From positions 55,012,841 through 55,076,840 of the forward strand of contig OX419762.1 of NCBI GenBank assembly GCA_948567375.1: 64,000 bases of DNA, given 5' to 3'. Of this stretch, positions 1,897-55,699 are shown piece by piece. The position numbers were made by a program, and so were the translations under genes. The notes below the pieces were generated by a model. That model made no database searches and was not told where the DNA came from. It saw nothing but the letters and a program-made list of their open reading frames with translations. The stretch is from Lunularia cruciata (Eukaryota > Streptophyta > Marchantiopsida > Lunulariales > Lunulariaceae). The number at the start of each line of letters is the position of its first letter. Position 1 is the first letter of the stretch.

Positions 1897-1916
1897 GGAG
1901 CATACAAGGCCCTTGA

Positions 1917-4820: not shown

Positions 4821-4829
4821 TAAGGAAGA

Positions 4830-5560: not shown

Positions 5561-5599
5561 TATAGGAGATTGGGTAATTTTGTGTGATTCTTGTGGATC

Positions 5600-7045: not shown

Positions 7046-7059
7046 ATTGAAGTCTAATC

Positions 7060-14901: not shown

Positions 14902-16804
14902 TGTGGTACCCACATTTTTCATTTTGAACAAGTGTTGAAGAAGAAGTGCCTTGTTGACACCAAATTGAAACCAAATGGAGAAGAAATGAGAGGAAACTTG
15001 TCTTTTGATCGGCCTCAAGGAAGTCAACTTCATGTAAGAGGAAGAAAGACTCAGATTGGATCAGAACCAAAGAAGCTTACTTTGTGTTAGAGGAAGAGGA
15101 AGAAGGAGGTCTGATGCCAAAGGAGGATTACTTTGCATCGAAATGGAAGTTAAAAGTTAGGATTACTAAAGGGGCTATATCTTGGTGATGACATGTCCAA
15201 ATCAATCATGTTATATTTCGTTGGAAGCATCTTGCTTAGGGATTTCCACTACCACCAAAATCATAGAGCTTGGAGGTTTGTAGTAGAAGTTACAAGCATT
15301 TGAAGTTTTGGAAGTAGATGTATATAGTAGTTGAGTGTCTTTGAGTTCACATTACTTTGGGTCTCTACGACTTCGTGTCTCTACAACTTCAGGTCTCTTT
15401 GACTTTGCCTTAGGATGAAGGTGACTAGATCCAAGGTAGTTGGACCTTGGAGTGCAATGAAGGTGACTTTGGGAGTCTTGCGAGAGGCATCAAAAGAAGT
15501 TAGAGCAAGGAAAGAAGATATTTAGGATACCCATGACTTCAATTTCAGTTCTAATTGAAGGTAAGATAGAATTAGAAGAGAAATAGTAGTAGTGAATGAA
15601 CCCAAAGTGCAGGATCAAACAAATAAGTGTCTTTGGGTCAGTTACATGAGCAATTAGGGGAAAGTGGGTTACAAATTGAAGGCATAAATAGTGTACCCAT
15701 GCTTTCAATTACAATTCTTGATGGGGATATAGTAGAATAAGCAAAGGAATTGATAGTAGTGAAAACCAAAGTAGTAGGAATAGGAGTACAGATATTTTTA
15801 GAGTTGCCATTAGGGATCTTAGAGAAAGATGGGTTTCAAGATTAAGAGTTAGGAAGGTTACCTATGGCGGAAATTGTAGATCAGGAACAAGTAGTAGAAA
15901 TAGTGAAAGATTTAGTAGTTGGGAAACCCAAGGATAGAGTAGTATGTGAGGTTACTTCAGGATCGGGATTGGAAGCCAAAGAAGAGGTAGACATCGGATC
16001 GGAGTAGTAATAATTTTGAGATTTAAAGAGGCAGATATGAAGAGGTGCATTGTCATTTCAGATCTGCAAGTTAGAAAAGTTGTTGTAGAAAGGTATAGTT
16101 GTTTGTTAATTATCGATTGCTTCACTATTTAAAGGTGGCATTTGCAATCATATGTTGTTCAGTGCTCATAATTCTAAGAATAGATAAAGCAAAGTGTTAT
16201 GAAGTAGTGCTTGTCGCTTGAGCTTTATTCTGAGTATCAACTTTGTGTTTGTAATTATGAGTGTTTGGAGAATTCTGAAGTGCAAGTCAATGTGTTTGTT
16301 GGATGTTGGATTCTGCAGCCTTGATCTTTACTTTGTGTGTTTGATCTTGAATGAAGTGTAATTAGAGCAATACCTTGATAGATCTGAGAGGAATTGTAGT
16401 GTTGGTAGTATTTTGCATTTGTGAGTGCAGCGTAGTGTTGATGTGAGGCCAGTTAGATTGAGGAAGTTGTGCCTTTAGTAGAGGAGTGGAACACAATTTT
16501 GAGGCGAAGTCATTTTGCAATGAAGTGCCATCTTTGGAAGAGATTGAATCATCACAATCAAGATTGTTTGGAAAGATTTGATGGAGTTGTGATTAAGTGT
16601 GACAAATTGTTGTGACAAGACTACATGTTAGTGCTTGTTACTCTCTTTTGGGTGTAGTTGCTACCTAAGAGATTAAATAAGAACTCAAGAAGAACTACTT
16701 GTTATTGTTTGACTTTGCATTTGACCAATTCTGACTTGTATCTTTGTGGGAACAAACTTTACTTACTTGATTACCGCAAAAGTGATATTTTCCAGGTTGT
16801 CACA
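14902..16804 (+). mobile_element. Short-type family B lone LTR (1.9 kb)
   Basis: TGTGGTACCC...GGTTGTCACA with perfect AGAGA duplications at 14897-14901 and 16805-16809. Flanks rejoin the A2 leader. The N-terminal coding part present in long B LTRs is replaced by ~400 bp of non-coding sequence also seen at 6497-7045. A remnant of the C-terminal coding end (~15720-16010) and the R/U5 part remain. CTATTTAAAGG near 16123-16133 is the conserved promoter-like box. Confidence 0.9.
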
Positions 16805-18766: not shown

Positions 18767-21236
18767 ATGACTGCGATTTGGGGCAATATAAAATTGCAAC
18801 TGCGCAGGGGGAAGTTGAATCCTCCGAGTAAATTTCCAATTCCTTTGAGTAGTCGTCCTGTAGTAATGCGTGTCCGAAAGCCTGTCAGGAGTGAGATTTT
18901 CCGGAACCCTGAGGGAGTTAGAGTGTCTCGTCCAGGAGAGGGTCTTATTTTCCAACAATGTAGAACGAGAGAACAAATCATGGCAAAGAAGGTGGCCAAT
19001 GCGCTGGCAGTGAGAGGTTTTGCAATCCAAAGAGTAGATGTAATAGCTAGAATCGAAGTCTTGATTAGACTTCATATTACAATTTTAGCATGGAACTGGA
19101 ATTTCAGTTTCCCGGGAGTGATGGCAGAGATCACTGCTAGTAATTGTGAGGAGGGTCCCGAGGTGGAAGGGAAGAGAGGCAATCCGGCTCGATGGACTGA
19201 GTTGGATTGGAAGTTAGTATTGGGGAGAGAAGCATGAGAGCCCTTAGGGATCACCTTCTATTGGAAGTGTGATGCTGTAGAGGAGACGGCAGAGATCCGC
19301 AACTCATTTTTTGCTCCGAATCGTTCAAGCCAGAATGAACGACTTACGTGACCATGCAGTAGGCTGTCTTTTTCCATCAAATGTTTGCAGGAGTTCTAGT
19401 TAATTGGGCAAGGTGCTTTCATCACCAAACGAGGCAGATGGTGGTGAATTGGCAAATGGGCTCGCCACCGCATTATTTTGCACCATTCACAGCTCACTTC
19501 TACTTCGGGCTGAATTTACTATCCAAAGATGAGCATCATCGTATGGTGTCTCACATGCACCCTGATTTGAGACGGGAAGTAGACAATGAGGAGCGCCAAT
19601 ATATGCTGCATCTTCAAGCAAATGACAAGTACTTTGCGAGGACGGGATAGTGGAAAATTGAAGACATCACCAGTCCGAAGATGAAGAAGCGCATCAAACC
19701 CAAAGAAACCAAGTCGTCTCCCATGCAAAGAAAGACTCGGCGGCTGATGTTGAAGATAGCAAAAGTCATAAGAGAGGCATCATCGGGATTGGAGTCTGGA
19801 GAAGAGACTGAGTCGCAAGAAGAGGACTTAGAAGAAGAGGAGCTCACCTTGAAAAGTGAGGAGTCTGGGAGCAAAAGTGATGGAGAGCCAGAAATCTAGC
19901 AGCAGTAAGTGAGGCTTGTCAGACAATGATAACAAACAAGTCAAGACCAGAAGAGAAGGAGGAGTATCCCATGGGGCCGAGTTCAAGAGGCCAAGACAAA
20001 GACAGTGCCGACACGATGAAGATACAAAGATTGCAACTTTGGATGAAGGAGCCGATGACGGAGGAGAAGACTCCAGATGAAGATGGCAATGAAGAGGAAG
20101 AAAACTTCGGCGGGATAACATATTTGACAAAGGTGGTCACACCATTGCTCGAACTGTTGAAAGGACATCGGAGAGGAATTCCCCAAGATTGCAAGACGGG
20201 GATGAATGAGTTGCAGGTGGTGAAGCATCTGTTGAGTGAAGTGCAGGGGTTGCAGGAGCAACAAGTCCAAAGAAATGAAGAAATTGAAGAATTTCGGAGG
20301 GAGGAAGGCTTGAGAAAGAAAACGCTGACCCTGCTACAAGGAAGTTGCACAGAGAAGGGGCAGGAATTGCAGAGGCAAGCTGGAGAATTGAAGGAGCAGG
20401 CGATGTGGCTGAGAAAAATGAAGGAGGAAGTGAGTGATGTGTGCATCAAGAATGTTCATTTGAAGGCGATGAACATCGTGATGGAGCAGGAGTTGGACAG
20501 CTTATAGAAGACTGCCGCAGCAAAAGATCAAGCATGGCAGAGAGAGTTGGCATCAAGGCAAGAAGAAGAAGAGTGATTGCAAGAGCTTGTCAAGAGCGTA
20601 GAACAGCAGAGCATGCAATATGCAGAGGAGAAGAAGATGCTTGTTGCAAAATATGAAGACGAGTTGAAGATGTATCGTGAGGAGTTGAAGGTAGAACGCT
20701 CTCAAGGATATGAATCGGAATCAGTAGGAGAAGTTGCGGGGAAATTAAGAGCAATCTTAAGCATGGAGGCTGAAGGGAGATTGGAGGAAGCTCACCTACA
20801 TGAGTTGAAATTACTTGTGCAGGAGACTCGGAAGCAAAAAGCCAAGGATGTGGACATGAACACATTCCTGATTCGGTTGAGAGAGCGTGTAGATAGGAAA
20901 ATGTTAGATGTAGAGAATAATGTTAGTCTTAGACTGGATTTAGTCAATTTGGAGTTAGAAAAAATTTGGAATAGTGTGACAATGGAGAAGAAATCCAATG
21001 TTACAGAAGTAGGAGTACAGGTATCATCGGACTTGGGGATTGACACATTAGAGAAGAGTGGGTCCGGAGATAAGAATGTAGATGGATTACCCATGAGCTC
21101 AATTGTAGATTGTAGTGTAGAAGTGGTAGAAATAGTGAAGGAATTGATAGAATTAGCTATACCCAAAGAAGGAGAAATAGTAAGAAGATCATCGGGTTTG
21201 GAAGCTGATGATGAGGTAGACATTGGATCGGGATAG
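18767..21236 (+). pseudogene. LTR-encoded globular + coiled-coil protein, family B
   Basis: Coding region within the LTR, broken into pieces in three frames (18767-19237, 19381-19650, 19681-19899, 19926-20507, 20577-21236). Order of parts: basic N-terminus; globular segment with AWNWNFSFPGVMAEI and, after a frame change, NWARCFHHQTRQM...PPHYFAPFTAHFYFGLNLL; a K/R then E/S-rich acidic stretch (~19681-19880); a long coiled coil (~20200-21000, heptads of L/E/K/Q); and a tail ending SGLEADDEVDIGSG. Same strand as the retroelement. I do not recognise the family. The globular part recalls plant retroelement ORF1-type proteins (ATHILA ORF-1 class) in general character only. A host-acquired gene or a retroelement accessory protein are both possible. 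Confidence 0.7.
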
Positions 21237-21356
21237 AAGTCAATTTTGAGATAGGAAAAGGAAGATATGAAGAGATAGATTGTCCCTTGGGATTTGTAGG
21301 TAGGAAAGGATGTTAGGAAGCGGTGTGTAGATAGGCAAGTCTGCCGTTTGCTTTAG

Positions 21357-21364
21357 TATTTAAG
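21357..21364 (+). promoter_or_regulatory. Conserved TATTTAA box of the family B LTR
   Basis: TATTTAAG about 120 bp after the LTR coding region. Equivalent boxes occur at the same place in other B copies (58557-58564; CTATTTAAAGG near 16123; the complement of CCTTTAAATAG near 37130 and 45820). Conservation and position suggest the retroelement TATA box, which would put the coding region in U3 and the remaining ~650 bp in R-U5. Confidence 0.55.
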
Positions 21365-22189
21365 TGGAGCATTTGCAATACGATGTTATTCAGTATTCAA
21401 CTTTCTGAAGATAGATAAAGCAAAGTGCTATTCTTAGTGCTCGTCGCTTAAGCTTAATTCCGATTGTCAATTTTGTGTTTGTGTTTGTGATAGTGTGGAG
21501 AATTCTGGAGAGCAAGTCAATGTGTTTGTGGATGTTGAAATCTGCAGCCTTGATCTTCATTCTATGTGTTTGATCCTGAGTGAAGTGCATCGGAGCAATG
21601 CCTTGACAGATCTGAGAGGAATTGTAGTGTTGTTAGTATTCCGCATTTGTGAGTGCAGCATGAAGTTGATGTGAAGCAATTTTGATCGAGGAAGTTGTGC
21701 CTTCAGTGGAGGGGTGGAACACAATTCTGAGGCAAAATCAATCTTTGCAGTGAAGTGCCATCTTCGGGAGAATCTGAATCATCACAATCAAGAGTTGTTT
21801 AGACAGAATTCGCTATGTTGTGATTATGTGTGTGTGTATGCGTGACAAGTTATCAAGATTGTGAGCTTGTTACTCTCTTTTGGGTGTAGTTTCTACTTGA
21901 GAGATCAAAGAAGCCATCAAGAAGAACTGCAATTGTGACTTTTGACTTCGTATTTGACCAATTCTGGATAATATCTCTACGGGAACAAACTCTACTGACC
22001 CAATTACCGCAAAAGTGATATTTGCTAGGTTGTCACACTGTGACTACCAAGAGAACTTGCATTAGCACCTTAACACCATCAACAACAAAGACTCCTATGA
22101 AGAAGGGGATGGAAGACTTTTTGATCTCAAAGCAACAATGGAACTACAATGTGTTGGAGGATATTGGTAGTCACTAAGCTAACATCACA

Positions 22190-22531: not shown

Positions 22532-22702
22532 GGTGGTAGTTTCAATTATAAGAGTTCAAAATCTTTGGACTTTCCAAAGTCTTGAAGGATTCAAGCTATG
22601 ATTTGCTTCTTGCGAGACCATGGTTGAGAGAAGCATGCACAATTAATTGATGACACAAAGGGTACTTGAGGAGTGGACCATCAAACAATAGATTCACCAT
22701 TC

Positions 22703-22809
22703 TGTCGTGCATATATACATCGCTACACAACATACATCGCTGTCAACATCATACACTATAGAAGCACAACTCAGACATAAGTCATACATAGACTCTAAAG
22801 TGCCACAAT
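22703..22809 (-). repeat. 107-bp repeat at the outer left end of element C
   Basis: Nearly identical (three differences by eye) to 23260-23366, which lies on the other side of the 448 bp LTR block. The element therefore ends with LTR-start sequence beyond its LTR. See findings for the circular-permutation reading. Confidence 0.8.
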
Positions 22810-23366
22810 AATCAGATTGCTTAACACTCTCAACTCAACTCAACTCAGATCAGTACTTGATCTGTCACTCTATAAATTGCCAACAATTGGGCATTGATTA
22901 CAGTCAAGCCACACCCACTCAAGCATAGAGAATCCAGGTGATGCTTACCGGCCTCTGTCCACCATAGCCAAGAACTCTAAGGCTCAACATCAAAGAAGTG
23001 AGCTCTTTGGAGCTCACTTCGAAACTATACCCCCTGGACTTGAGCTAGCACTGAAACCCTAATGGTCCCACTGACGGCACACTCAACGGTGCGAATGGTG
23101 CAAAGTGATGGTGGGCCCTATCGTGAAGTCAGTACCCCAAACACCAGATCTAACCGTCGGAAAGTAGTCTCTGAGAAACTGCTAGAATAACTCTAACTAC
23201 TATCACTGGAACTGCAATGTCCAAGCATCTAGATGCGGAACTACAAATGGCGTGACAGCTGTCGTGCGTATATACATCGCTACACAACATACATCGTTGT
23301 CAACATCATACACTATAGAAGCACAACTCACACATAAGTCATACATAGACTCTAAAGTGCCACAAT
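22810..23366 (-). repeat. 3' LTR of element C
   Basis: Read on the minus strand: a purine-rich tract (AGGGAGGCGA, complement of 23367-23376) precedes TTGTGGCAC, then 107 bp, GC, and the 448 bp block starting TGTCACGCC and ending CAATCTGATTA. The 448 bp block matches 32331-32779 with many differences, mostly transitions, so this is not a recent insertion. Confidence 0.65.
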
Positions 23367-23533
23367 CGCCTCCCTAGCTGGCGGTTAGGTCCCTCTAACT
23401 CCAGATAGCCATCTACTCTAAGTATATGGTATACCCTCTAATGTGCAAAGATCAGGAGGCCGGGTGCTATGGAGCCCTATTGTTAGTCGCCTGTCTGCAA
23501 TCTTTACCATATAAAGAATGAACTAGCTATAGG

Positions 23534-24070
23534 TCAAGTACATCTAGGACATAACCACTGTCCCTGAGGAACCACTGTGAGGAGAGGAGTCATACATGCC
23601 ATATGCCATCCTCTCAAACAGCTATCACACACTAACATAGTAGTAGCTCTACTTGAAGAGCCACATAACATACACCTCAAGCCTACAAGTGCCAAGCTTG
23701 GGTCCATAGTACCATCAACGTTTGGGAGGTGGCATGGCGCACAATTGTGCATATGATCCTTCCAAACAACACCATCACGTCCTTCTAACACAAGGACTCC
23801 AGCTGGCAAAACCTTGCGCACTCTCAAGATAGTGCGGTCTGTAGAAACATCAAGTGTCGTCGGTGCTGTCTGCTATAGATATACATAGCTGCCTGGATGA
23901 AATCGACGGATTGAGGGTCTATAACCTCCTCCTCCAATGGTAGCATAGCGTAAAGTATCTCTATGTTGAATAATTGCCAAGTTCTCAAAGGCCATTGGCA
24001 TCACTCTCCGAAAGATCTCTACGCGCTGAGAACATGCGCTCATCCATACATCGGGGTCATCCAAGTCCAA
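23534..24070 (-). pseudogene. Integrase C-terminus of element C with terminal PHD finger
   Basis: After the integrase core comes a short segment (24070-23873) ending FHPGSYVYL, then a stop. The same frame continues as 23827-23534. That part has the usual integrase C-terminal run (VRKVLPAG...HNCAPCHLP), then a C4HC3 zinc finger at the very end: C-x2-C-x11-C-x2-C-x4-H-x2-C-x14-C-x2-C, with GWHMAC and a Trp two residues before the last Cys pair (QWLCPRC). This is a textbook PHD finger, at nucleotides 23674-23540. PHD fingers read histone H3 tails. In chromoviruses a chromodomain occupies this position, so a targeting role is a reasonable inference. All eight zinc ligands are intact. Confidence 0.85.
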
Positions 24071-24085
24071 AACTACAGTAGCATC

Positions 24086-24985
24086 TCAACGAATGGCTGT
24101 AGGTAAATCAGGATCTTGTCTATAGAGTAGAAAGTATGGAGAGAAGGATGCTAAGGAGGCTTGCCGGCTGAACCGATAGCCCATGGCCAACCAAGGTAAT
24201 TGGAGATCCCAATCTCCCAAGTGGCCTCTCTGCAAACCATACTTTCGCAATCCTCTCTTCACCGTCTGAACCACTCTCTCTGCTAAGCCATCTGCCTCAA
24301 GGTGATCTTGGGATGTAGTATGATGATCAATCAAAGCCTTGTCACACAAGACTTGAAACTCCCCCAAGAACTCTGTTCCTTGATCAGTCAAAACCTCGGC
24401 TGGTGCACCAAAATGACTAAGAACTCGATCCAGGAACGAGTAAGTTGTCCCTTCACTAGACTTGTCAAGAAGTGCCATCAACTCAATCCACTTGGAGAAG
24501 TGCTCCACCATCACCAAAACATACCAATGATGTCTCACAGTCAGCGGTAAAGGTCCGGCGAAGTCCAAACTCCAACGGTAACCCAATCCCATGATAGGTA
24601 ATGGGTGTAACTGTGGCGTAGGAGCATTGAATGATGCTCTAACTCGGTCACAAACCACACATCTGGCAACAAACTGCTGTACCTCGGTCTGCATACCACG
24701 CCACAAATAATGACTCTGGAGTAAGCTATATGTACGCTTTACTCCAAAATGTCCTAGCTCCTCATGAGCATGACGGACCAACTATGGTCTCTATGATGGA
24801 AGTGGTACTACTTGCACTCTACCATCCTCCCATACACGCAAAAGGTGTCTACCCTCAAATCTGAACCGTCTGGCTTGCTGAAGAACACGGTCTCTCTCCT
24901 TGGCCCCAACTGTGCCACCCACAACACCAGTGCGAAGATAGTCCATCACTAAGACATCATCGCTGAACTGTACCAATATCTTCAC
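24086..24985 (-). pseudogene. Integrase of element C
   Basis: Zinc-binding HHCC module (HAHEELGHFG, CVVCDRV) followed by the DDE core: SLDFAGPLP, LTDQGTEF and a glutamate in ADGLAERVVQ. The three catalytic acidic residues are all present. A stop near 24790 separates it from the upstream linker (24985-24791). It is in a different frame from RT, so an indel or frameshift lies between ~24957 and 24985. Confidence 0.85.
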
Positions 24986-26630
24986 TCTCTAGATCTGTGA
25001 CCTCAATAACTCCTCCTGTATGCGCTGAGAGAGATACCACCAAAGCCTCTGCAAATATACACAAAAAGGCCGATGCATGCCAACTTGGCACCATCTCCTC
25101 ATCTATCTCACCATGCCAACGTGCTCCGGTCTGATCCTGCTGGCTGGGACATGGGTTTCTACTCAACCCATTTGCATCACGTTTCACCACTCCAAGTCTG
25201 TGAACAATCGTGAAATCATACTCCTGTAAAATCAGAGCCCATCGTGCAAGCTTCCCTAAAAGCTTGTCAGACTCCATCAACCACTTCAGCGGCTGATGAT
25301 CAGTGATGAGAGTGAAGGGGTTACCAAATAGGTAACATCAGAAATGTGCTACTACCCAAACTGCTACCAAGCACTCTCCCTCATATGAACTATACTTTGC
25401 CTCCGCTGAATTGTTGGAGCAACTAGCATAGGCCACCACAAACTCCTTCTCCTCATCATCATGCTCGATGAGCACCGCTCCAAGCCCCAACATACTCCAA
25501 TCAGTATGAACCTGAAATGGTCGTCCCCTGATTGGTCCCCTCAAAATAGGAGCAGATGTCAACCTCTCCTTGAGCTCTACAAAAGCTCTCTCCTGCTCAT
25601 CTCCCCAATACCACTCTTGTGTAAGCTTGGTCAGCTTTGTCAAGGCCTTTTCAATGGCACTAAATCCTCTAACATAGCGGAGATAGAAGTTTGCCAACCC
25701 AAGGAATGCTCGCACTCTGCTCACATCCGTAGGCCAAGGAATACGTGCAATAGCCTCTACCTTGGTCTGCTAAACACCAAGTCCTCCGGGGTAGATAGTG
25801 TGACCCAAATACTCAACCTGCTTGTGGAAGAACCTACACTTCCCAGGATGTAGTTTGAGTCCATGAGATCTCAACCTCTCAAACACCTCCAACAACTGTC
25901 TCTCATGCTCCTCCACAGTAGTGCTATAAACCAAAATGTCGTCAATATAGCACCGAGCAAAATCCAATCCAGCTAGGATCCTATCCATGACCCTTTGGAA
26001 CTCAGCATGAGCGTTCTTTAACCCAAATGGTAAGAACCTCCATTGATATAACACATCCTTGCCGTGAGGATCAATAGCCCAAAATGTTGTCTTGAACTTA
26101 TCCTCCTCCCTAATCGGCAATTGATGATATCCTGCTTGAAGATCCAAAGTACTGAAGACCTTTGCATGCCCAATCACATCAAAAATCTCCTCTGGTGTAG
26201 GCATGGCATAGCGATCAGCCCTCATCTGTTAGTTGATAGGACGGTTATCTCCACACATCCGCCTATCTGTATAGTTGCCATGCATATCCTTCTTGGTTGG
26301 CATCACTGTCGCTGATGCATACTCTCCATGTGAAATCTCTACCAAACCAGCCTCAAAAAGGTCACTACTCCGGCTCTGAATCAATGTCCTCTCCATATCA
26401 CTATATCGATAAGGACGTCGGAAAACTGGTGTGTCGCTAGTCAGCTCAATCCGTATACCAGGTCCCTTCAGAGCACCCAAATCCTTCATACTGAAGGCAA
26501 AACAACTTGTGTGACTCCTCAAGAACCTCCAAACCCTCCTTCTTCCCTCTCCAATAAGCTTGGGTCCAAGATCTGGCTCCCAAGTATCCTCTGTAACTGT
26601 AGTAGGAGTGGAAGACGTATTGACTAATTG
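24957..26630 (-). pseudogene. Reverse transcriptase and RNase H of element C
   Basis: Three consecutive open pieces in one frame (26522-26229, 26225-25770, 25724-25338), then 25280-24957. RT signatures: FSTLDLQAGYHQLPI (first Asp), RFLPFGLKNAHAEFQ and the catalytic CYIDDILVYS. RNase H follows with VHTDWSMLGLGAVL (first Asp), YEGECLVAVW (Glu) and the end LGVVKRDANGLSRNP. Stops at ~26226, ~25767 and ~25335 interrupt it. Catalytic residues visible to me are retained, so the damage is mainly nonsense mutation. Confidence 0.85.
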
Positions 26631-26675
26631 CTACACTGGGCCCTTGGGAGCAATAGTGTCATGCTCCCGACCACT

Positions 26676-26721
26676 AGAGGTCCCAACCTCTGGAGTTTTT
26701 CACACAGAGGTTGGGACCTCT
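26676..26721 (-). other. 17-bp perfect inverted repeat (hairpin) between methyltransferase and RT
   Basis: AGAGGTCCCAACCTCTG (26676-26692) and its exact complement CAGAGGTTGGGACCTCT (26705-26721) are separated by 12 bases. It lies where the reading frame changes between the methyltransferase block and RT. No slippery heptamer is evident beside it. Confidence 0.6.
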
Positions 26722-26724
26722 GTG

Positions 26725-26772
26725 GCTGCAAGCTCCACACGTCCTCTGGCTGCAAGCTCCACACGTCCTCTG
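26725..26772 (-). repeat. 24-bp tandem duplication, two units
   Basis: Two perfect units of GCTGCAAGCTCCACACGTCC plus CTCTG-type end (24 bp each). In the minus frame they encode a repeated eight-residue unit (EDVWSLQP twice) in the linker between methyltransferase and RT. Confidence 0.8.
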
Positions 26773-26980
26773 GCTGAATCCCATGTGGACCAAGGGTGTA
26801 ATCCAAGTAGCCCACGCTCACCTGGATGGACTCCAAGTAGACCACTCTCCCTGGTAGCTACTGGATGTGTCCCAAGAATACCCTGTCCACTCGGTCCATC
26901 GCCCCCAACATGTGAATCGGCTCGATAGGCACAGGGCTCACAAGTGTCTGAGAAGTGATGCCTATCAAGCGCATCCTACG

Positions 26981-28140
26981 CTACTCTGCCAAGCCAAGGC
27001 TCACAATCCAGGTCAAACAGTTCAAGTCCATAGCCTGACCTAACACCTGACGCCTAGATGCCTCTGACACTACTGGAACAGCGGTAATACCGGTGCAAAA
27101 ACCCATCACCCACTCTCTCTCATCAGCGTTGGGCTCCACCAAGTGCTGTAACTGTGAGTCCCAAACAAGTCCATGTCCTCCCTCTCGATAAGCATGAGAG
27201 CTTGGGAAACTCATGAGTGTGGGAAATGCAGCTCTTGTCTGTCCAACTAGGTTCACCACTGCCATAGGTGACGTATCAGCCACTACCACTATCTTAGACT
27301 GACGCCCAACATCCAAGATATCATCAACAAGAATGTGGTCCCATCGCTGAATCCCATCATAAGCACGTTGTAGAACCTCTCTGGGTAAGAGGTTCGTCCA
27401 CCAAAGACGAAGACAATGAGCCCGTGATCCCACTCTGGCTGCATCTAACAATACCACAGGTCCCATCCAAGAATGGACCTGATGTATACTCGCCATCACT
27501 CTGGTGCAAGAATCACCTATCAAAGGAACGTTCTCCAAAAGGTAAGCTGGGGAAACAGATTGATGAACCAGGAGATGTCGTAATATCCGTAACATCTCCC
27601 AAAACACACCTGAACGAGGATCCTGAAGACCCAATCCTCTACCAGCACATGTATGTCCCTGTCATGGCCATCCAGAAATCACCAAGTGAATAGGCCCATG
27701 TCTCTCTAGGTCATGCGCCCCTAGTAAGGAAATGTCTCTTGGTAGGGCCTTCTGGTAACCTCTGACTGCTGACATCGGTAATAACTCCGGATACCGATAG
27801 GCCAAGTGTGCTGCATGATGTAGAGAGACTCGCCTAGCAGTCTCATCTCTCTCTACATACAAGTACCTCTGTACTCGGATACCCACCTGTAACACCGCAG
27901 CTAGTTTGGTGTTGATCCCACCAAACAACTCCAATAGGCATATCCCCTCTACTGGATACTGCCAAGCAATGAGTGTGGTATCTAGAGGTGTCAAAGCAAT
28001 CACCTCTGGAGGCTCATCCTCACACTCATCTCCTGATGGTACGAAGGCTCCAGTCCAAGCCTGCTGCACCAACTGATCTGCATGCTACTGCAATGCCTCC
28101 TCTGAACTCCACAATGGAACATCCGAGGTGGATGGAACAA
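26981..28140 (-). pseudogene. C5-cytosine DNA methyltransferase domain inside the element C polyprotein
   Basis: Two open pieces in the same frame (28072-27662 and 27634-26981), joined through a single TGA. Motifs appear in canonical order: motif I ICLLELFGGINT (27937-27914); motif IV LVISGWP then a stop then QG, where PCQ is expected; motif VI ENVP (about 27535); motif VIII LLDAARVGSRAHCLRLWWTN (expected HRxR, here HCLR); then MGFCTGIT and SEASRRQVLGQAMDLNCLTW as motifs IX-X. The set resembles the DNMT3/DRM branch, but in canonical rather than DRM-permuted order. The domain methylates cytosine by attack of the motif IV Cys. That Cys codon is TGA here, so this copy is dead. It lies between protease and RT in the gag-pol frame, hence expressed as part of the polyprotein. 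Confidence 0.88.
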
Positions 28141-28153
28141 TCCCACTCGTACT

Positions 28154-28920
28154 CTAAAGCCGAGTGATCTCCTTTGGTACTTGAGTATCCTCTGCATGGG
28201 CATTCCCCTCCAACAAGTCACCAGGCCAAGTAACTGCACCACTGAAAGCTAAAACTGATGTTGCCATGGTCCTGGACTGTAGTGAGCCAAGACTGCCACT
28301 ACTAAAGCGTATTGGTAGGCGACATACCTGTCCCTCACCAGACTGCCAACCAGGTCTATAAGAGGCTGTCTCCTCCCAATAGTCAATGCTGAAACCCATG
28401 GGGTATAACATTGCTCCCCCAACTAGCACATCATATGACTCAGCTATCGTCGCAATAGCCTGAGCTCTCACCACCGAGCTATCAGTCGGATGACTAGGCT
28501 GAACTTGGACAACAAGCTCTCCACGTGTGATGTACTATGTCAAACCACCACCAAGAGATGTCTGGATCTAAAATGGACACCTCTCCACATCGGTCTTTCG
28601 TAACTCCAGACCGACAACTACAGCCTTCCCCAACATAAGGGGCTACGCACCAGAGTCTAACAAGACTCTCTATGGTGTATAAACCTTCCCTGAAGGTCCC
28701 ACCAAACAAAAAATCCTCCTCTGGTTATCCAATAGGACAACACCAAGTGTAAACCACGCTCTCTCAAAGGCCGGTCTAGCTGGCAACTCCTCCAGTCTAG
28801 CCGCTGCTGCCTGCCATAAACCATTGGTCGCTGAACGGATCCCATGCTCCTCAACCAAGTCAGCTCCACTACCAACCACCTCTGCTCTAGTAGTAGGAAC
28901 TGCACCATCCCTACTCTCAC
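28154..28920 (-). pseudogene. Aspartic protease of element C
   Basis: The catalytic motif LLDSGA is readable on the minus strand (Asp codon complement at 28655-28657), followed by a stop and PLMLGKAVVVG in the same frame. The C-terminal half (28474-28154) has YDVLVGGAMLYPMGFSIDYWEE, the second structural strand and (L/I)G turn typical of retropepsins. The N-terminal flank (29386-28670) is a linker from the zinc knuckles. Broken by stops. Confidence 0.75.
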
Positions 28921-29392
28921 ACAACGTGGCAGCCAGCCGGAACACTAGGGCTGGGTCAACTCCCAATGTAAACATATCACTGGCCGAAATCAAAGGACGC
29001 CGCATAATCAGCTGAGCCACCTCCAACATCATGCTAGACTCAGTCTCTATAGTAGCAGGTGGCTGACTAGCAAGTAGTCCATCATGTACTCCATCACCAC
29101 CTACCACACCTACACTAGGATGTCTAGGAACCATGGATGTCGTCTGCAATGCCTCAGATAGCGTGAAAGATTGGGGAAGTCTGACATGTCTCCCAACCTC
29201 TCCTCTCTGTGGGTCCAACTCCACTGATGCTCCCCTAGGCTCTGGAGCACGTACTGCACTCCTAGTCACTACTGCAGATGCATCCACCTGTGCTGCTCTG
29301 CACATGAAGTCCAAAGCATCTCTATCACCAGCATATGAGGTGGAAGCCTCAGCACCCGAATTTGATCTCCTCTGAGCAATAGCCATACTAGC

Positions 29393-29749
29393 CTATCTCT
29401 GCTCCAACTGCTCAATCCGAGTAGCCATAGTTGTGTCAGAAATAAGGGTAGGTACTACACCCCTACTAGGTGTAGATCCTCTACCACCACCTCTACCACC
29501 TCGTCCTCCATGAACTGGAGCTCCTCTACTACCTACCATAGCAGCCCTACCATTCCGTAACTCCGGGTGTAGGTCAAAACACCGGTCACTAATGTGACCA
29601 AATTTGTGGCAATGCTTACACTGCCTTTGTGCTGGCTGTGATGCACCAAAGGTATCAGGTCTGCTGCCTTGAGTACACTCTCTCCTATGGTGAGGTCCAC
29701 CACAAGTCCAACAAGCAACACTACCACTCATTGGCTGCTGCTGACTCAA
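29393..29749 (-). pseudogene. Nucleocapsid region of element C with two zinc knuckles
   Basis: Two CCHC patterns: CWTCGGPHHRREC and CKHCHKFGHISDRC, then a Gly/Arg-rich run. They lie between gag and protease in the same frame, as in Ty3/gypsy nucleocapsids. Confidence 0.85.
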
Positions 29750-30049
29750 AAATGAGGGTAAGGGTCTAACTCCACTAGGCCCTCCACTCGCTCCATAGGA
29801 TCTAGGCTGTCCACCCTGTCCTCAAAAACCAACTGGGTGTGGTGCACTCTGCTGCACTCTAGAAGAAGTCACAGTCGTGGATGAGGTCTCCCTACCAAAT
29901 CCAGATGTCACCACTCTCTCATCCACCATGTTGAGCTCAATACGCTCAGCTTAACCAAAGACTACTGCCAAAGTGGGCAAAGTAGCCTACAACAACATAG
30001 CATCACGAACTCTACGTTGCAACTCCTTGTCCGATATCCCATACCAAAA

Positions 30050-30946
30050 CTAGACTGCTTGGGCCTCAGTAACTCCCTGAGTGAAACTGATCAGCCACCT
30101 CATGCGAGTGTATGCCTCACGTAGGCTCTCTCCAGCCTTCCGCTGGAACTCTTGCAAGCTCCTCAGCTTGTCAGTCCGTACTCCCTGGTAGTTCTGCCTC
30201 AAACATAGGAAGAACTCCACCATGGGGTTAAACCCCGGTACCACACCACCTCCTGCAGCGGTACCTCCACTCGTAGTAGCACTATCTCCAGCTAGTGCAC
30301 CTCCACTAGCTCCACCAACACTACTCGAGCTAGAACTCGTAGGTACAGCTGATCTACTCCTGGCCACCAAGCCTGAAGTGATGGAGACATAGTGTGGAGA
30401 CCAATACTGTCTCCATAACTCAATCTCCTCTAAATGAGCTCTCCTGAACTCATGGTAGTCATCCATCAGTGGACCCTCTAAGTGCTGAAACAACTTCTTC
30501 CATGCCATGAAGGGTGTGAACAAAGTTGGGTTCCGCATCTGCTGCAGATCACACCAACTGTCGAACTCCTGGATGAAGTCATCCAACTCAATGGTACCCA
30601 CTGTACCAAAGTAACGCCTAGGGCCTTTGGAGGCCCCATAAATCTTGTCCATGTCCCACAACAACGGTGCGGACACACCAAGTGCACTCTCAATTGAATC
30701 AGCTCTTGTGTCAAACTCCAACTCAGAGTCAATCTCCTCTCCCATTGGGACCTGAGATACAGGCTGATACCGAGCACCACTCTGAGTAAACCCACTGTGT
30801 ACTGCAGGGCTAACTCCTCTAGAATCTCCAAAGAACTCCGTCGTGACAAAGTAACCACACCAACAAACCCGAACCACCAACTGCAACCGCAAGTCGCAAC
30901 CGCAAGTGCCCCACCAAGTGCCAACACCACCACGTGCCAACACCAA
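30050..30946 (-). pseudogene. gag of element C
   Basis: Open stretch of ~298 codons. The first ATG in frame is at 30745 (MGEEIDSELEF); upstream codons are open but lack an ATG. Central part FIQEFDSWCDLQQ...FTPFMAWKKLFQHLEG is the retrotransposon gag core. A Ser/Gly-rich spacer follows, then LREAYTRMRWLI near the end. Stops just after 30050 separate it from the zinc knuckles in the same frame. Confidence 0.8.
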
Positions 30947-31701
30947 CTAAACACCACCCACTAATGTAACTCTAACCGAGATAACTACACTAGGGGAAGG
31001 GCAACCTATAACCTGCGATCATAACACGCACTCTCACGGTCTGCAGGTCATCACTTCTTGCCTCACCGGAGAGAAACAAAGGTAGTCTGACTGGTCATCA
31101 TTCCAGCCTCACCACCGAGAGCACACCAGAGCACCAACGCTCAAAAGTCAGGGCACCTCACACAAACGTGGTGCACAAACAGGAAGCAGAGAATGGAGGA
31201 AGTCCAATCACAAGAAATCTAAACAAAAACCCTCCATCTCATAACACAACACGGGACTGACTCTGCCACCATTTGGCATTTGACATAAGAGCAGTTCGTA
31301 TCTAAGTCCTAAGCTACCAGGATCACCAAGAATGGGATCAAACTGCCTCTCTTAGCCAAAGCTACATGTGTATAGATAACAGTGGCACAGTCACTATGAC
31401 AACAAGCGAGGGTGGACCAGTTGGCTAGGGCACCAGTCTAGGAACAAGAGATCTAAGGGTCAAACCCTGTTGCACACAATCTAGCACGAAAGGCAGATTT
31501 TGCCAACCAATGACCAAGATCTACTCTAAACTAGCTAGCCTCACGCCAACAAGCTGGCTTGCTGGCTCTTCTAGGCCTTTGTAGCCTCTCATAGCCCACG
31601 GCCCTATGCCTCAAAGCCTCTAGACGCCAAAATTCAGCCAAATGAGGCCTTTCTTGTTGCCACTTCGAACCTCCTCCAAAATTGGCAAAACTTCTCCAAA
31701 T

Positions 31702-31978
31702 CTGCAAAAGTCCTCTAAACTAGCGAAACTCCTCCAAATCTGGCCAAATAGCAAAAACTCCTCCAATTCTGGCCATAATCTGACGTAGACCCTAAAGATA
31801 GTTGTCTGCCAAATCCCTTGCTAACTTTCCGATTTGGAAAGTCCTCCAAACTAGCAAAACTCCTCCAAATCTGGCCAAATATCAAAAACTCCTTCAATTC
31901 TGGCCAAAATCTGACGTAAAATCTGACGTAAATCCTAAAGATGGCTGTCCGCCAAATCCCTTGCTAACTTTCCACTCG
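31702..31978. repeat. Imperfect tandem repeat, period ~130 bp, in the element C leader
   Basis: The block around CTCCAAATCTGGCCAAATA at 31731 recurs at 31862, followed in both by AATTCTGGCC, TCTGACGTA and CCAAATCCCTTGCTAACTTT. A short AAAATCTGACGTA duplication sits inside the second unit. 31000-32330 has no convincing ORF. Confidence 0.65.
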
Positions 31979-32330
31979 AGCCAAATTGACAAAAAGGGTT
32001 TTTCCAAATCACAATTTCATGAGAAAAGCTTCCCAACTCCACCTTCAATTTGACTTTCTGAGCCCAACTCGTAGCAAATTGGTCCTGCCTTCACCTCTTG
32101 AGCTCAAAATCACAACACTGCTCAAAAATTGCTCCTTCTTTGCTCAAAATTTGGCCAGCGCTTCCGCACACCATCCGCCTAACTGCCAAATCTGCATCAA
32201 CTGAACGAGCTTCTGCACACTAGGGAAACACGGAACTTGAATCGAGCTACCACGATCCACCGAGCTTGGAGATACCACCAATACTCAAAGTCCTGCACCT
32301 GATTTCCCCTTGACTTCACTTCTCTGATGT

Positions 32331-32779
32331 AATCAGATTGCTGAACACTCTCAACTTAACTCAACTCAGATCAGTACTTGATCTATCACTCTATAAATTG
32401 CCAACAATTGGGCACTGATTACAGTCAAGCCACACCCACTCAAGCATAGAGAATCCAAGTGACGCTCACCGGCCTCTGTCCACCATAGCCAGGATCTCGA
32501 AGGCTCAACATCAGAGAAGTGAACTCTCTAGAGCTCACTTTGAAACTATACCCCCCTAGACTCGAGCTAGCACTGAAACCCTAACGGTCCCGCTGACGGC
32601 ACACTCAACGGTGCGAATGGTGCAAAGTGACGGTGGGCCCCACCGTGAAGTCAATACCCCAAACACCAGATCTAACCGTCGGAAAGTAGTCTCTGAGTAA
32701 CTACTTGAATAACTCTAACTACTATCACTGGAACTCCAGTGTCCGAGCATCTAGGTGCGGAACTACAAATGGCGTGACA
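32331..32779 (-). repeat. 5' LTR of element C, truncated at its start
   Basis: Matches 22810-23257. On the minus strand it begins TGTCACGCC at the insertion boundary and ends CAATCTGATTACA. The next bases, ATCAGAG, are a partial match to the initiator-Met tRNA primer-binding site (TGGTATCAGAGC). The 107 bp that start the left LTR are absent here. Confidence 0.65.
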
Positions 32780-35168
32780 ATTCCTTTGGCAAACGTCACA
32801 CACACTTCACATTCAAATACACCTCTTATGATTATTGAGAATCAAATTCAAAAGAAGGAGCTTCAATTGTGGACACAAGCATAGATGGGGAGATTTCCAT
32901 GGAGGAAGATGAATCTAATTCTGATTAAGATGTGTATCCCTTGTGTGCAATAGATTTTCCACCTAAACTAGAGGTTTTGAAGGACCCAAATAAATTACTA
33001 TTGACACTCGAGAGACTTAATTGTAAACTTTTGTGTCTATGGGAGTAAGGAGGAGCACTTTGAGCACCTAATCAAGGTCTTGCAATGCTTGGATGAAGTA
33101 AATGCATCACTCAACCCAAAGAAGTCCATTTTTTATTGTGAAAAAGTTCTACTTTTGGGGCACATCATCTTCAAGGATGGGATAGTAGTTGATCTTGAGA
33201 TGGTGAAGAAAATATCAGACCTTCTATTCCCTTCAAGCTTGACAAAGTAACACCAATTCTTGGGGATGGCTAGGTACTATAGGAGGTTCATCTTCTCATT
33301 TTCCAAAAAGGCTTATGCATTGACCATCTACATGAAGAAGGGTGTAGAATATATGGTGATTTTGGAGGACAAGGAAGCTCTCAAAGCTTTTGAAGAGCTC
33401 AAGCAATCCCTTGTTTGAGCTCCAATTCTTGCTAAACCTAATTGGAGTAAGCCTTTCATCCTCTACATTAATGCTTCCAATGTAGCTATAGGATGCACTC
33501 TTTCTCAATTAGACCAAGATGGACATGATCATCCAATAGCTTATTGTGCTAGTAGGTGGATGGTCTCAGCAGAAAAGAACTACTCTGTCACAGAGAGAGA
33601 AGGGTTGGCACTGATCTTCGATATTAAGAAGTTTAGACACTACTCGATTGGAGGGAAAGCCACAATTATCACGGATCACAAGGCTTTAAAGTACATCTTT
33701 AAGAAGCCTTATGTTGAAGGGAAGCTAGCAAGGTGGATGATACTCTTGTCTGAATATGACTACACCATTAAGGATAGGCTAGGGAAGAAACATGCAAATT
33801 GTTATCTAGGGCCTATGATCATGATTGAGTTGAACTAGTGGATGATTACTTCTTGGATGAGGAGCTCATGGCAATCTCAATCACTCAAGAGGTTTCAATG
33901 GAGTACAAGGAGATTTTGGACTTGGTTACAAGAGGTAACTATCCAGAAGGGATGCATACTAGGGAGAGGAAGGCTCTTGCAACACAATCTAGACCTTACA
34001 CAATGGTGGAGGATATTATTTTTCACCAAGGAGCATATGGTCTACTTCAAAGAGCAATGGGTAAGGAAGAGTCTATCCTACTCATAAAGGAGTTTCATGA
34101 AGGTTTAGTATGAGGAGGACACTTTGGAAGAAACGTGACTTCCTTCAAGATTCTATGCAGGTTACCATTGGAGGAGGATTTTCAAGGATTGTCTTGATTA
34201 TTGAAAAACTTGTCATGTTTGTTAGGAATGATACTTCCACTCCCTCTCTTAGATCAATTCCATTGTGAGAGCCTTTTGAGAATTGGATAATTGACTTTTA
34301 TAGGTCCTCTCAATAGAACCCCAAGGAACAATTGATACATTGTGGTAGTTACTGATTACCTTACCAAGTGGGTTGGAGCTAGACCATTGAGGGACAAGAA
34401 TGAAGAAGAAGTTGGTAGATTTCTTTATGAATGCATAATCATTAGGTTTGGATTCCCTTTGGAGTTGGTTTATGATAGAGGAGGAGAGTTTACAAAAAAC
34501 ATTACTACAGCCATTCTATGGCACTTCTCTATCATACATAGAGTAACTACATCCTATAAGCCAAATTCCAATGGCTTGGTAGAGAGAACCAATCAGACCT
34601 TGTGCATGATGTTGGCCAAAGATGCAAAAATAAAGGGAGCTAAACATCAAGAGGATTTATGTTGTTTTGTGGGAGTGAGGACAACCATGAAGACTTCTAC
34701 TGGATATTCTCCATTTCAATTGGTATATGGTATTGAGTCTACCCTACCTATTCACTTTGATCTTCCTACCTTCCAAAGCAATTAAAAGAGATTGAAGAAA
34801 GCACAAGGAGGTGATATATAGAAGTCAAGGAAGAGCAATTGCTACGGTTCAAGTGGAGCAAGCCCAAAGGGAAAAAAAATGTGAGCTATGATAAGAAGCA
34901 AGTCAAGAAGTAGGTGGAGTTTTTCAAAGAAGGTGATTGAGTAGTGTTGTTTGATTCCATTTGATTCAAGAGAGTGCAAAAGACGTTTTTGCCATAGTAC
35001 TTTTGACCTTTCATAGTGAAGAAGGTGTGGGGAAATTACACCTATGATCTCAAGGAGTTGTGAAGAAGACACTTTGATAAGATTCACGATGATAAGTTGA
35101 AGATGTATCATAAAAGGTAGAGAGACCTTCACTTTGAGGACAAAGTGAAATCTTAGTTTAGGGGTAAA
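32780..35168 (+). pseudogene. pol remnant of A2 (RT part, RNase H, integrase)
   Basis: Colinear with A3 pol. RT is deleted from the linker to just after the palm motif (join near 33020). RNase H is recognisable, with LYINASNVAIGC (Asn at the first catalytic Asp position, as in A3) and the later VTDHKAL-type segment (ITDHKALKYIF). Integrase pieces are 33838-34113 and 34342-34785, with YDRGGEF at the second Asp and ERTNQTL at the Glu. Frameshifts and stops throughout. Confidence 0.8.
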
Positions 35169-36468: not shown

Positions 36469-39400
36469 TGTGACAACCCGACAAATATCACTTTGCGGTA
36501 ATTGGGTAAGTAAAGTTTGTTCCCGTAGAGATACAATTAAGAAATATCCAAATACAAAGCAAAGTAACCAAATTAGTTCTTCTTGGTTGCATCTTTAATC
36601 TCTTAGATAGAAACTACACCCAAAAGAGAGTAACAAGCACTAACTTGCAATCTCGTCATGAATTAACACTCCTAATCACAAATCCATCTAATCTTTCTAA
36701 ATAATCTTGATTGTGATGATTCAGTCTCTCCCAAAAACTACTACTTCACTGCAAAGCACCTCTGCCTCAGAATTGTGTTCCACCCCTCCACTAAAGGCAC
36801 AACTTCCTTGATCAAAAAAATTTCACATCAACCTACAATGCACCCATAATTGCAAAATACTACCAACACTACAATTCCTCTTAGATTTTTCAAGGCATTG
36901 CTCCAATTGCACTTCACTCAAGATCAAACCCATAGAGTAAAGATCAAGGCTATGGAATCCATCATCCAACAAACACACAGACTTGCACTTCAAAATTCTC
37001 CTAACACTCACAAACACAACCACAGAGTTGATACTCAGAATTAAACTCAAGCAATGAGCACTACTTCATAGCACTTTGCTTTATCTATTCTCAAAATTAT
37101 CAGCACTGAACAACAACATATTTCAAATACCTCCTTTAAATAGGCAGAGCTCTTTAGAAGTTATCTAACTTCCTAAACTACTTCTAAACTACCTCTAATA
37201 ACCTGAAGATCCAAAATGACAATGCACTTCTTTATATCTGCCTTTCAAAATCTTGAAACTGTTTCTTAATCCAATCTGATGTCTACCTCTACTTTGGCTT
37301 CCAAACCTAAGAAAAACCCCCTTCATCTCCTGTACTTCATGTCTATCTAATTCTACTAAGTCCTTTGCTATTCCTACTATCTCTTCACTACAAACTAGAA
37401 TTGCACTAGTAAGTAACTTATCTAACTTGTTTTCTCCCAACCCACTCTTCTCTAAAGTGTCAAGTGTCAAATCTAAAAACACATGCACTCCTACTTTTTC
37501 CACCTTGGACCTCAGACACCTCATGGATCTACAAAGTCTCTCCAATTCTGAATGTACTAAGTCCAATCTAAGACACACATTGTCTTTTGCTTGTAATATC
37601 TTCCTATCTACTCGATCTCTTAAGCAAATCAACAACTAGTTCATTCATTGTCCTTTTCCTTCTTCTTCCTTGTTTCTTGCACTAAAAACTTTAATTTTCC
37701 GTCTTGCTTCCTCCAATTGGACTTCACACATTGTCCATAACATTACTTTCATTCTTATAACGACATGTTTGCTTGCATCTTGTCTTGGCGTCTGCAACTT
37801 CTCTCTCTCTGCTAATAATTCTTCACAATAAATCTTCACCTCATCTTCCAACTTGGCCTTTAGTGCTTCTTTCTCCTTCACTCTCTGCCTAAGCTATTCT
37901 TCCATTCCTCTGACCAACCCTTGCAATAGTTCTTCTTCTCTATCACGCATGCCAACTCTTGTTGCCAAGCCCGATCTTTCTTTATTGCATTGGCCTTCAA
38001 ACTTTCCAACTCTTGACCCATAACAGCAGCCATTGCTTTAAAATGTATCACTTCTATGTGTGTATCATGCACTTCTGCCCACAAGGCTTCAGACTTCACT
38101 AAATGCTCCTTCTGATCTTCTTCTTGCTTTGCCATGGCTTTGCCTCTCTTCGCAAAGTCCTTTGTTAAACTCTCAATCTCCTTTCTCCTCAGCTCTACAT
38201 CATTACAAAGCTCAACTTACTCATGATCTCCTCAAATCAACTTCCTTTTCAACTCCAAATTTTCATCACTCATATATCGTACTACTGCCAATTCATCCTT
38301 CACTCCCGAGTGATCTTGCTTCAATGCATCTTGCTTCTTTTGTAATTGTACTAGCAAAGGGCAAACCACCCGTGACAAGTACTCTACTCCATCCAAGATT
38401 TTGGATTTCTCAACATGCTTTGGCTCTTTGCTTCTACTTGCTTCTACTAGAGCTTTACTCTGAAGTTGTAATCTTCTAACTCTTAGAGGTTCTTCATCTG
38501 AATTGGCCTCCTCTTCTTCCACCGGACTCACATTACTTACTTCTGCTATTGCAATAGCAACACTTCTTTCCCCTCTCTTGCTCCGCTGAACTTCTGCCAT
38601 TGGCTCAACCTCCAGAGTTTCTTCTATTTCAACTAGATGGAACTCATGTTCTTCTTTCTCAGCATCATCTCCACCTTGTTGCTGAAATTCTACCTCACCT
38701 TCACTTCCATTGCTTGACTCTTCACTTTGAAATGTCAACTTTGGTTCTTCTTCTTCTTCTGAGTCTTCTTCCTTGTACTCAACTTCACCTTCCAACACTT
38801 TTGCTCTTGACAACTCATCAAGCACTACAACGTCTTGTCTTGGATTTACTTCCGCACATTCTTTGGCTTGACTGGCGACAAACTCTCCTCCGGATGACTT
38901 TGCTTCCTTGTCTTCAAAATGGTTGCTGCTACTAGTAGATATTTCCCTATGCATGCATAGTGCTCGTCACTACTTTAGATCTGTCAAATATACTACTATT
39001 CCTTGCCATCTGTAGTCTTTCATAAGTTGGGATGGAAATGCGACACCATCTTTCTTTGCTCAGACTCCTTCATCAAGTTCAATCCAAAGTAGAAATGGGC
39101 AGCAAATGGCACCATAGTGAGGCGCATCTTGCTTTCTCCAACACCACACCATCTATTGTGCTCTTTGTTGAAAATACTTTGCCCAATTCACTAGCGCACC
39201 TGCAAACATCTGGTGGAAGAAGAGCACCTGATGCTTCATCATATAAGTCATGCAATCGGGCTTGAAAAGTACCATCATTGCCCCAACAATGCTTTGCTTG
39301 ACTAGGTCTTAATAGGTATCCACTTTATACCCATTCTTTGTGTGTGGTGATGTAAAGGAATTTTGGGTCTCATTTGTCTCCTCCGTGGACTCTCCTTTTC

Positions 39401-41539: not shown

Positions 41540-42319
41540 AAAATTCATGTGACAACCTAACAACTATCACTTTTGCAATAGTTGATGAGTAATCATTTGT
41601 TCCCATTGAGATATTAGTCAAGAATGGTCAAATATGAAGTAAATAATAACAATGTAGTTCTTCTTGATATTATCTTTAGCCTCTTGGGTAGAAAAAACAC
41701 CCAAAGAGAGTAACAAGCACTTACAATCTTGTGATAATTAAATGTCACTAAGAATCACAATTCTTCAATTACTTTCCAATCCAATCTCAATTATGATGAT
41801 TCAATTGATTCAATGAAGGCCTTTACAACATCAAGTGACTTTGCCTTGGAACTGCATTCCATCCCTCCAATGAAGGTATAACCTCCTTAGTCAAAATGAC
41901 TTTGCATCAATCTAGTGCCTACAATCACAAATGATCAATACTACCAATACTACATTTCTTCATAGATCCATCAAGGCATTGCTATCTACTTAGGATCAAA
42001 ACACAAAAAGGGATATAAGAGCTGTAGAATCCAACATCCAACACACTTGGACTACAATCCAAATTTCTCCACATATTTGTAAACACTCATGCAAAACTAA
42101 TACTCAAATTAAGCTAAAAAGATGGGCATTGAGTTTAGCACTTTGCTTTACTCAACTTCAAAACTGAATATTGAATACAATGCATTGCAAGTGGCTACTT
42201 AAAATAGGCAGAGCACTCAACAATTATCAAAACTGTCTAAACTACCTAAGCCGCTCATTGACAATCTTTAGATATGAATCATTAGATTTCCAATTGCACT
42301 GCTTCAAATCTGAAAACTA

Positions 42320-55660: not shown

Positions 55661-55699
55661 AGAGACCTTCACTTTGAGGACAAAGTGAAAACTTAGTCC

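Follow-up and report, generated by a model that had tools for sequence, protein, structure and literature searches.

The window analysed here, a stretch of 64,000 nucleotides from Lunularia cruciata (assembly GCA_948567375.1, contig OX419762.1, positions 55,012,841 to 55,076,840 of the forward strand), contains a complete minus-strand Ty3/gypsy retroelement, the polyprotein of which almost certainly includes a DNMT3-type C5-cytosine methyltransferase (DNMT), as judged from identity and architecture. In our best reading this would be a known kind of element in a new variant in land plants, and the reading as a whole, with self-primed DNA synthesis, circularisation, integration at a palindrome and a DNMT3 produced at the level of Gag, appears likely to us. 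The relatives of the element show that methylase-bearing elements exist in land plants (liverworts and peat mosses) as well as in algae. They thereby offer, within land plants, a means of asking what a parasite gains from an enzyme that normally silences parasites.

The methyltransferase occupies two open stretches on the minus strand (27662-28084 and 26981-27661) that share one frame and are separated by a single TGA, with the core at about 27000-27961. Scanned separately, neither stretch gave a Pfam match. When joined, with an X written at the stop (P0001), they matched PF00145 at 16.8 bits (E 0.005), below the family cut-off of 22, and a phmmer search of the PDB gave DNMT3A at E 7e-6; the methyltransferase signal that an earlier sequence-only reading of this DNA had named as the point to be checked was thus present. 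When P0001 was compared with 5.8 billion proteins, 8000 candidates were scored and 134 of them passed as relatives at E ≤ 1e-3; the best had E 3e-158 and 68% identity over 99%, a similarity that by these alignments is far above chance. Each of the three protein searches scored at most 8000 candidates and was length-limited, so that full polyproteins escape, and the relatives used from the first search are the best 120 of the 134. Those named among the matches listed included Marchantia, Riccia and Calypogeia (liverworts), Sphagnum and Closterium. For a different ORF of the window, the top named match was Riccia sorocarpa (59%), followed by Taxus chinensis (55%). DNMT3A/3B were the nearest solved methyltransferases in structure and profile comparison, and the profile search placed DNMT3 above DNMT2, profile and fold both giving DNMT3. 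Motifs in P0001 and its relatives run unrearranged from I to X. A DRM identity was rejected, since the DRM order is rearranged (VI-X before I-IV); the host's own DRM-like exon does have IX-X ahead of I.

The sequence-only reading had seen motifs I, IV, VI, VIII and IX-X in canonical order. That order held in the window copy for I, VI, VIII and X, but motif IV is broken, the TGA falling on its catalytic Cys codon, and one motif VIII arginine common among relatives is replaced. The catalytic Cys column was covered by 125 of 202 listed relatives (Cys in 120, Tyr in 4, Phe in 1), and the motif VI Glu and the motif X Gly were found in 131 of 141 and 114 of 119 relatives spanning those sites. With a stop as its catalytic Cys codon, the window copy is unable to make an active enzyme and is dead, its family relatives not being so broken at the Cys. 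Relatives of the enzyme occur in land plants, those named being from Marchantia, Riccia, Calypogeia and Sphagnum.

The domain order was gag, CCHC zinc knuckles, protease, DNMT, reverse transcriptase (RT), RNase H, integrase and PHD finger, thereby containing the gag-protease-RT-RNase H-integrase order with a DDE integrase typical of Ty3/gypsy elements (Metaviridae). The earlier placing of the methyltransferase between protease and RT, sharing its frame with gag and protease, was correct; the RT (~25770-26580) is not in the DNMT frame in this decayed copy. The earlier Ty3/gypsy assignment likewise stood with regard to domain order and integrase, but the element is not of the plain long terminal repeat (LTR) type, having split direct repeats instead. 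No Pfam match was obtained for the CCHC knuckles of the window copy, and Pfam matches to the protease were found solely in relatives. Among 20 relative proteins scanned, protease preceded DNMT in the single proteins P0138, P0148 and P0186, and also, by sub-cut-off Pfam matches to the protease, in P0187, P0191 and P0194, with CCHC knuckles ahead of the protease in P0187 and P0194, and in P0158 the DNMT precedes RT. Two further proteins, P0170 and P0171, have DNMT followed by integrase H2C2 with no RT match between, possibly another element layout.

In a prokaryote collection, L054 was the one clear relative, and 47 weaker matches were also obtained. L054 (CADCWO010000201.1, positions 1-9285) is a 9,285-bp contig labelled cyanobacterial (Synechococcales metagenome-assembled genome, MAG). 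It codes for a complete DNMT retroelement of streptophyte type, with ends identical over 127 nt, and its presence in a cyanobacterial bin is probably contamination; an Obscuribacterales MAG protein (P0130) looks like contamination of the same kind. The two long frames of L054 encode gag-protease-DNMT (1346 aa, the protease below the Pfam cut-off) and RT-RNase H-integrase-PHD (1047 aa). Best-match identities between the window element and L054 were 26% for gag, 31% for CCHC, 44% for protease, 50% for DNMT, 61% for RT, 66% for RNase H, 72% for integrase, 60% for the C-terminal part of integrase and 56% for the PHD finger, which was also found by homology in Marchantia P0080. Viral contigs searched with the protein relative P0002 gave no DNA relatives, and searched with an alignment gave 53 loci at 24-53% identity.

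Within the Lunularia assembly itself (565.8 Mb), a PF00145 search scored 123 matches of 2161 candidates, which is a lower bound, and four of ten fetched loci (L102-L105) resembled host genes. Sixteen other copies of the element were read down the list of PF00145 matches; because these had been found by their DNMT, a second set was added, picked by a repeat junction alone (the first 12 or 30 of 568 places, contig C1). DNMT was found near its expected place in 11 of 12 junction-chosen copies, the twelfth showing none within the 350 bases read. Absence from other copies, which the sequence-only reading had taken as the sign of a chance host fragment, was therefore not what we found. The motif IV Cys was kept in all 16 DNMT-chosen copies, seven of which had a stop-free DNMT core and two a frame change inside it. 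The family is, by these sequences, autonomous and highly amplified, a single genome holding hundreds of copies.

Between DNMT and RT lies a stop that in all ten copies read continues the frame of the DNMT end (TAG in nine, TAA in one) with RT downstream, at +327 nt from the DNMT end in nine copies and +303 in one. It is followed by CAGCCA in nine copies and CAGCTA in one, with an extra TGA upstream in one copy; in L054, TAG CAATCA stands precisely where the first long frame gives way to the second. All of these contexts, including that of the window, match CAR-YYA. Stops followed by CARYYA numbered one of 316 in the window (three frames, 23534-30946) and one of 298 in L054, in each case the DNMT/RT stop itself. 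UAG-CAR-YYA is the readthrough signal of tobamovirus type. The present stop is like it in having CAGCCA, CAGCTA, CAATTA or CAATCA between two coding parts, and differs in having a methyltransferase on the gag side. The CARYYA signal is named in the text available of PMC3441728, citing Harrell 2002. Judged by its context we consider it highly probable that this stop is leaky, and its conservation together with CARYYA predicts that more gag, protease and DNMT is made than RT, integrase and PHD; the methylase is, on this layout, on the Gag side of the stop.

Comparison of the repeats gave the layout A-coding-B-A-B, and identical direct LTRs at both ends were not found. The 3' end read B-A-B in 16 of 16 copies, A1 was seen in 13 and not in the stretch read of the other three, and a 5' B repeat was absent in all 15 copies with a 5' stretch inspected for it. 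The 13 copies with A1 had an exact 4-bp target duplication in ten, 3 bp in one and none in two. Among junction-chosen copies, B-A-B was found in 28 of 30, with B2 missing from the match in two. At the B1/A2 junction the sequence CGACA-GC-TGTCACG places the 3' end of the element before its 5' end, with GC in between; this 14-mer occurred 568 times in the genome and its reversed form 0 times, and it was also present in L054. The A2/B2 14-mer occurred 2,870 times against one for a control. This excess of A/B over B/A points to many solo A-B units and suggests recombination between A1 and A2, with the caveat that the B/A 14-mer has two CpGs and would decay faster. One locus, L117 (G000:C6:23472861-23479760), has a 3' end with two consecutive B-A-B units.

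Priming of DNA synthesis could be predicted from the same comparison. The window has directly after A1 a 15-nt exact reverse complement of an arm within A1, a pairing reached by 0 of 300 shuffles of this site; its TATA lies 27 nt from that arm, or 24 nt from a longer arm having one mismatch. A 14-nt exact A1 reverse complement followed A1 in 12 of 13 copies (arm at A1 257 in 11, 248 in one), and in each of the 12 a TATA precedes the arm by 28-29 nt. In L054 the corresponding places hold a 13-nt pair of quite different letters, with TATA 29 nt upstream as counted by eye. Pairing kept with changed letters, in elements 50% identical in DNMT, is covariation, and Tf1-type self-priming thus appears very probable. 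Priming by tRNA was rejected, since no TGG opens the stretch that follows A1 and a self-primer fits better. The polypurine-like tract before B1 read CTAGGGGGG in many copies, as it did before the junction in L054; GGGGG preceded B1 in 26 of 30 other copies, the window having GGGAGG instead.

From these features we propose a life cycle in which transcription would start in A1 behind the TATA box and most ribosomes would halt at the UAG-CAR-YYA stop, so that more Gag-protease-DNMT than RT-integrase would be made. Minus-strand synthesis would then be primed by the folded 5' end of the RNA at the site beside A1, as in Tf1, and plus-strand synthesis from the polypurine tract would give a linear DNA with an LTR consisting of B plus A. 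Joining of its ends would form a two-LTR circle with the A2/B2 junction, which the integrase would open at the second, internal B/A palindrome, and opening at that site would explain A-coding-B-A-B. Integration of circle junctions was once proposed for retroviruses and later abandoned; for the present family we lean slightly towards this circle route, which the split repeats and DDE integrase together make testable in sequence data. The DNMT3 would be packaged with Gag in the particle and methylate the new DNA before integration, a role in self-methylation that seems plausible to us at a little below even chance. More tentative still, and somewhat unlikely, is a streptophyte lineage that would travel as a self-primed, palindrome-integrating two-LTR circle methylated by a Gag-level DNMT3, with insertions arriving already methylated.

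Several observations weigh against parts of this proposal. With regard to the enzyme, a competing reading is that the DNMT does not help by methylating element DNA but curbs copy number for the host, or works on RNA or as a binding protein. Copy-number restraint and RNA action are discussed in the text available of de Mendoza et al. 2018 (PMC5890265), which also states that retrotransposon DNMTs carry out de novo CG methylation; the binding protein is our own addition. Signs of purifying selection on DNMT across copies were seen as a median pairwise dN/dS (nonsynonymous to synonymous rate ratio, omega) of 0.386 (133 of 136 pairs with dS > 0.02, window included) or 0.378 without the window (117 pairs), the pairs not being independent. 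In 17 copies, the window copy among them, DNMT codon sites with two states showed 16 nonsynonymous (N) and 18 synonymous (S) shared changes (omega ~0.29), as against 42 N and 28 S among singletons (omega 0.49); another 40 variable sites, having three or more states or more than one change, are not in these counts. However, the shared-versus-singleton contrast was not significant for DNMT (P 0.29), whereas RT plus RNase H in ten copies showed it (7 N/17 S shared, omega 0.12, against 40 N/21 S, 0.54; P 0.003), and DNMT is thus less constrained than RT (shared-site omega ~0.29 versus 0.12). Counts were too small for use in integrase (shared 4 N/4 S, singleton 21 N/17 S, P 1) and protease (0 N/3 S and 13 N/8 S, P 0.08). 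The A1/A2 comparison in 14 copies, the window copy among them, gave 157 differences, of which 21 were transversions. C-to-T changes stood at 0.119 at CG, 0.067 at CHG and 0.013 at CHH, a pattern that fits methylated copies, whoever methylates them; the host could be responsible for that methylation. Another gypsy family, repeated within the window, lacks any match to the DNMT segment, so the enzyme is not generally required for spread here. A role other than self-methylation is nevertheless countered by the conservation of the motif IV Cys, motif VI Glu and motif X Gly among relatives, by the assignment to DNMT3 ahead of DNMT2, and by the hundreds of copies, some of them very young: the Kimura two-parameter (K2P) distance between A1 and A2 was 0.0022 in two of 13 other copies, the range being 0.0022-0.0716, with the window copy at 0.071 among the older. 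We take such a role as a minority possibility of real weight.

The remaining contrary points concern the circle and self-priming. In a further competing reading the same family follows the route of DIRS elements, single-stranded cDNA being closed over a B1A2 template, with A2/B2 inherited and no self-primed two-LTR product. A-coding-B-A-B is the DIRS layout, and that of KnitGypsy-Dnmt3 according to the legend in the paper describing it. The A2/B2 junction was standard in 14 of 16 copies and, by letters, in 25 of 30 junction-chosen copies (26 if a single-base change is counted; of the other five, one had that change, one lacked B2 and three had a trimmed end, an insertion or an added base). Such uniformity may exceed the outcome of plain end joining and makes a templated, DIRS-like closure possible. 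Nor was a permuted A-B-A-coding-B insertion found among the 13 copies with a 5' end, and the thirteenth of these had no self-primer pairing at one mismatch. Against the DIRS route stand the DDE integrase, the 4-bp target duplications and TGTC/GACA ends, as well as the polypurine tract and self-primer pair of this family and L054, which are parts of LTR-type synthesis. The two variant A2/B2 junctions, moreover, contain primer-site letters, four nucleotides in one and the primer site plus ~430 nt before B2 in the other, as expected from joined ends. We therefore regard the DIRS route as rather unlikely and retain the two-LTR circle.

A reading in which a single copy picked up a piece of a host methyltransferase by accident, which the broken state of the window copy might suggest, has a negligible probability, being refuted by the other copies that carry the segment (11 of 12 junction-chosen and, though found by their DNMT, 16 of 16), by relatives with DNMT beside protease or RT, and by the host's own DNMT3-like exon being just 35/99 identical to relative P0002.

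With regard to known systems, the closest was KnitGypsy-Dnmt3 of Klebsormidium nitens, which according to the text available of PMC5890265 has gypsy domains, a DNMT3 in the polyprotein and DIRS-like repeats. Feature by feature, and compared with the text of that paper only, the present family shared with it the gypsy domain set, an unrearranged DNMT3 in the polyprotein, DIRS-like repeats and purifying selection on DNMT. It differs in occurring in land plants with hundreds of copies, and in its PHD finger, leaky stop, self-primer, polypurine tract and demonstrated target duplications; neither "PHD" nor "split" appears in the main text of PMC5890265, and no match named Klebsormidium was among those listed. 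SymbioDIRS-Dnmt3, according to the same text, combines A-coding-B-A-B and a DNMT3 domain, as here, with a tyrosine recombinase in place of our DDE integrase, and DNMT acquisitions by elements are stated there to be independent. DIRS elements share the split direct repeats, but not their tyrosine recombinase and lack of target duplication: no recombinase was matched in scans of ten pieces of the window and three of L054, where integrase H2C2 and core were found instead. Tf1/Sushi and Tcn1 elements have ordinary LTRs. They share Ty3/gypsy membership and self-priming with our element, where self-priming is predicted from sequence, but have a chromodomain where ours has a PHD finger; Pfam scans of the ten window pieces and L054 gave no chromodomain at E ≤ 0.01. 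Tcn1 chromoviruses of the Tf1/Sushi group of Ty3/gypsy are placed in non-seed plants in the text available of Neumann et al. 2019 (PMC6317226), the main text of which contains neither methyltransferase nor PHD as a word. Among the papers listed in searches of the open literature, subscription papers lying outside it, none could be recognised by its title or the opening of its abstract as describing a land-plant DNMT retroelement, nor is one reported in the text available of PMC5890265, PMC6338049, PMC12344493 and PMC10952607, so that priority is unproven.

Table 1. Positions of the retroelement and its features in the window
Feature	Position	Strand	Basis
Complete element, 10,077 bp, ends 5'-TGTCACG...CGACA-3'	22703..32779	minus	Empty site and repeat comparison
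Target-site duplication ATTC, low end	22699..22702	none	Empty site
Target-site duplication ATTC, high end	32780..32783	none	Empty site
Repeat A1 at the 5' end, without an adjoining B	32330..32779	minus	Repeat comparison
TATA, 27 nt before self-primer arm	32547..32550	minus	A1 position 230; arm at 257
Predicted self-primer arm TTCACTTCTCTGATG (A1 257-271), also the predicted 5' end of the RNA	32509..32523	minus	Pairing
Predicted primer-binding site, directly after A1	32315..32329	minus	15-nt exact reverse complement of arm
Gag stretch	30050..30946	minus	Homology: P0140 67% over 72 aa, L054 26% over 223
Two CCHC zinc knuckles	29500..29760	minus	Letters; homology to 4 relatives
Aspartic protease region	28250..28720	minus	56 relatives match
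DNMT3-type C5-cytosine methyltransferase, two open pieces	26981..28084	minus	Searches of proteins, PDB and profiles
TGA stop at motif IV catalytic Cys codon	27662..27664	minus	Alignment with relatives and copies
Predicted leaky stop of UAG-CAR-YYA type separating DNMT from RT, TAG CAATTA	26625..26633	minus	Stop-context count
Reverse transcriptase and RNase H	25260..26580	minus	Pfam, homology
DDE integrase, H2C2 and core	24086..24781	minus	PF17921 3.8e-15, PF00665 5.9e-12
PHD finger, C-terminal of integrase	23540..23674	minus	PF00628 2e-10
Polypurine-like tract GCTAGGGAGGCG just before B1	23367..23378	minus	Copies compared
Repeat B1	23259..23366	minus	Repeat comparison
B1/A2 palindromic junction CGACAGCTGTCACG	23251..23264	minus	Element 3' end + GC + element 5' end
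Repeat A2	22809..23257	minus	Repeat comparison
Repeat B2, 3' end; A2/B2 reads as LTR-LTR junction	22703..22809	minus	Copies compared

The empty site was provided by a paralogous host repeat within the window, near 52636-52641. Two 81-nt direct repeats, 94% alike and 131 apart (31707-31918), lie in the untranslated leader of the element. A second Ty3/gypsy element, with open frames of 793 and 553 aa, was found at 50826-55975, having a CpG observed/expected ratio of 0.12 as compared with 0.42 in the DNMT element. Finally, a diverged repeat family of up to ~2 kb occurs on both strands of the window, at 20017-22037, with matches at 5786-7839, 15761-16804, 36469-37682, 41548-42203, 45187-46357 and 57200-59236.
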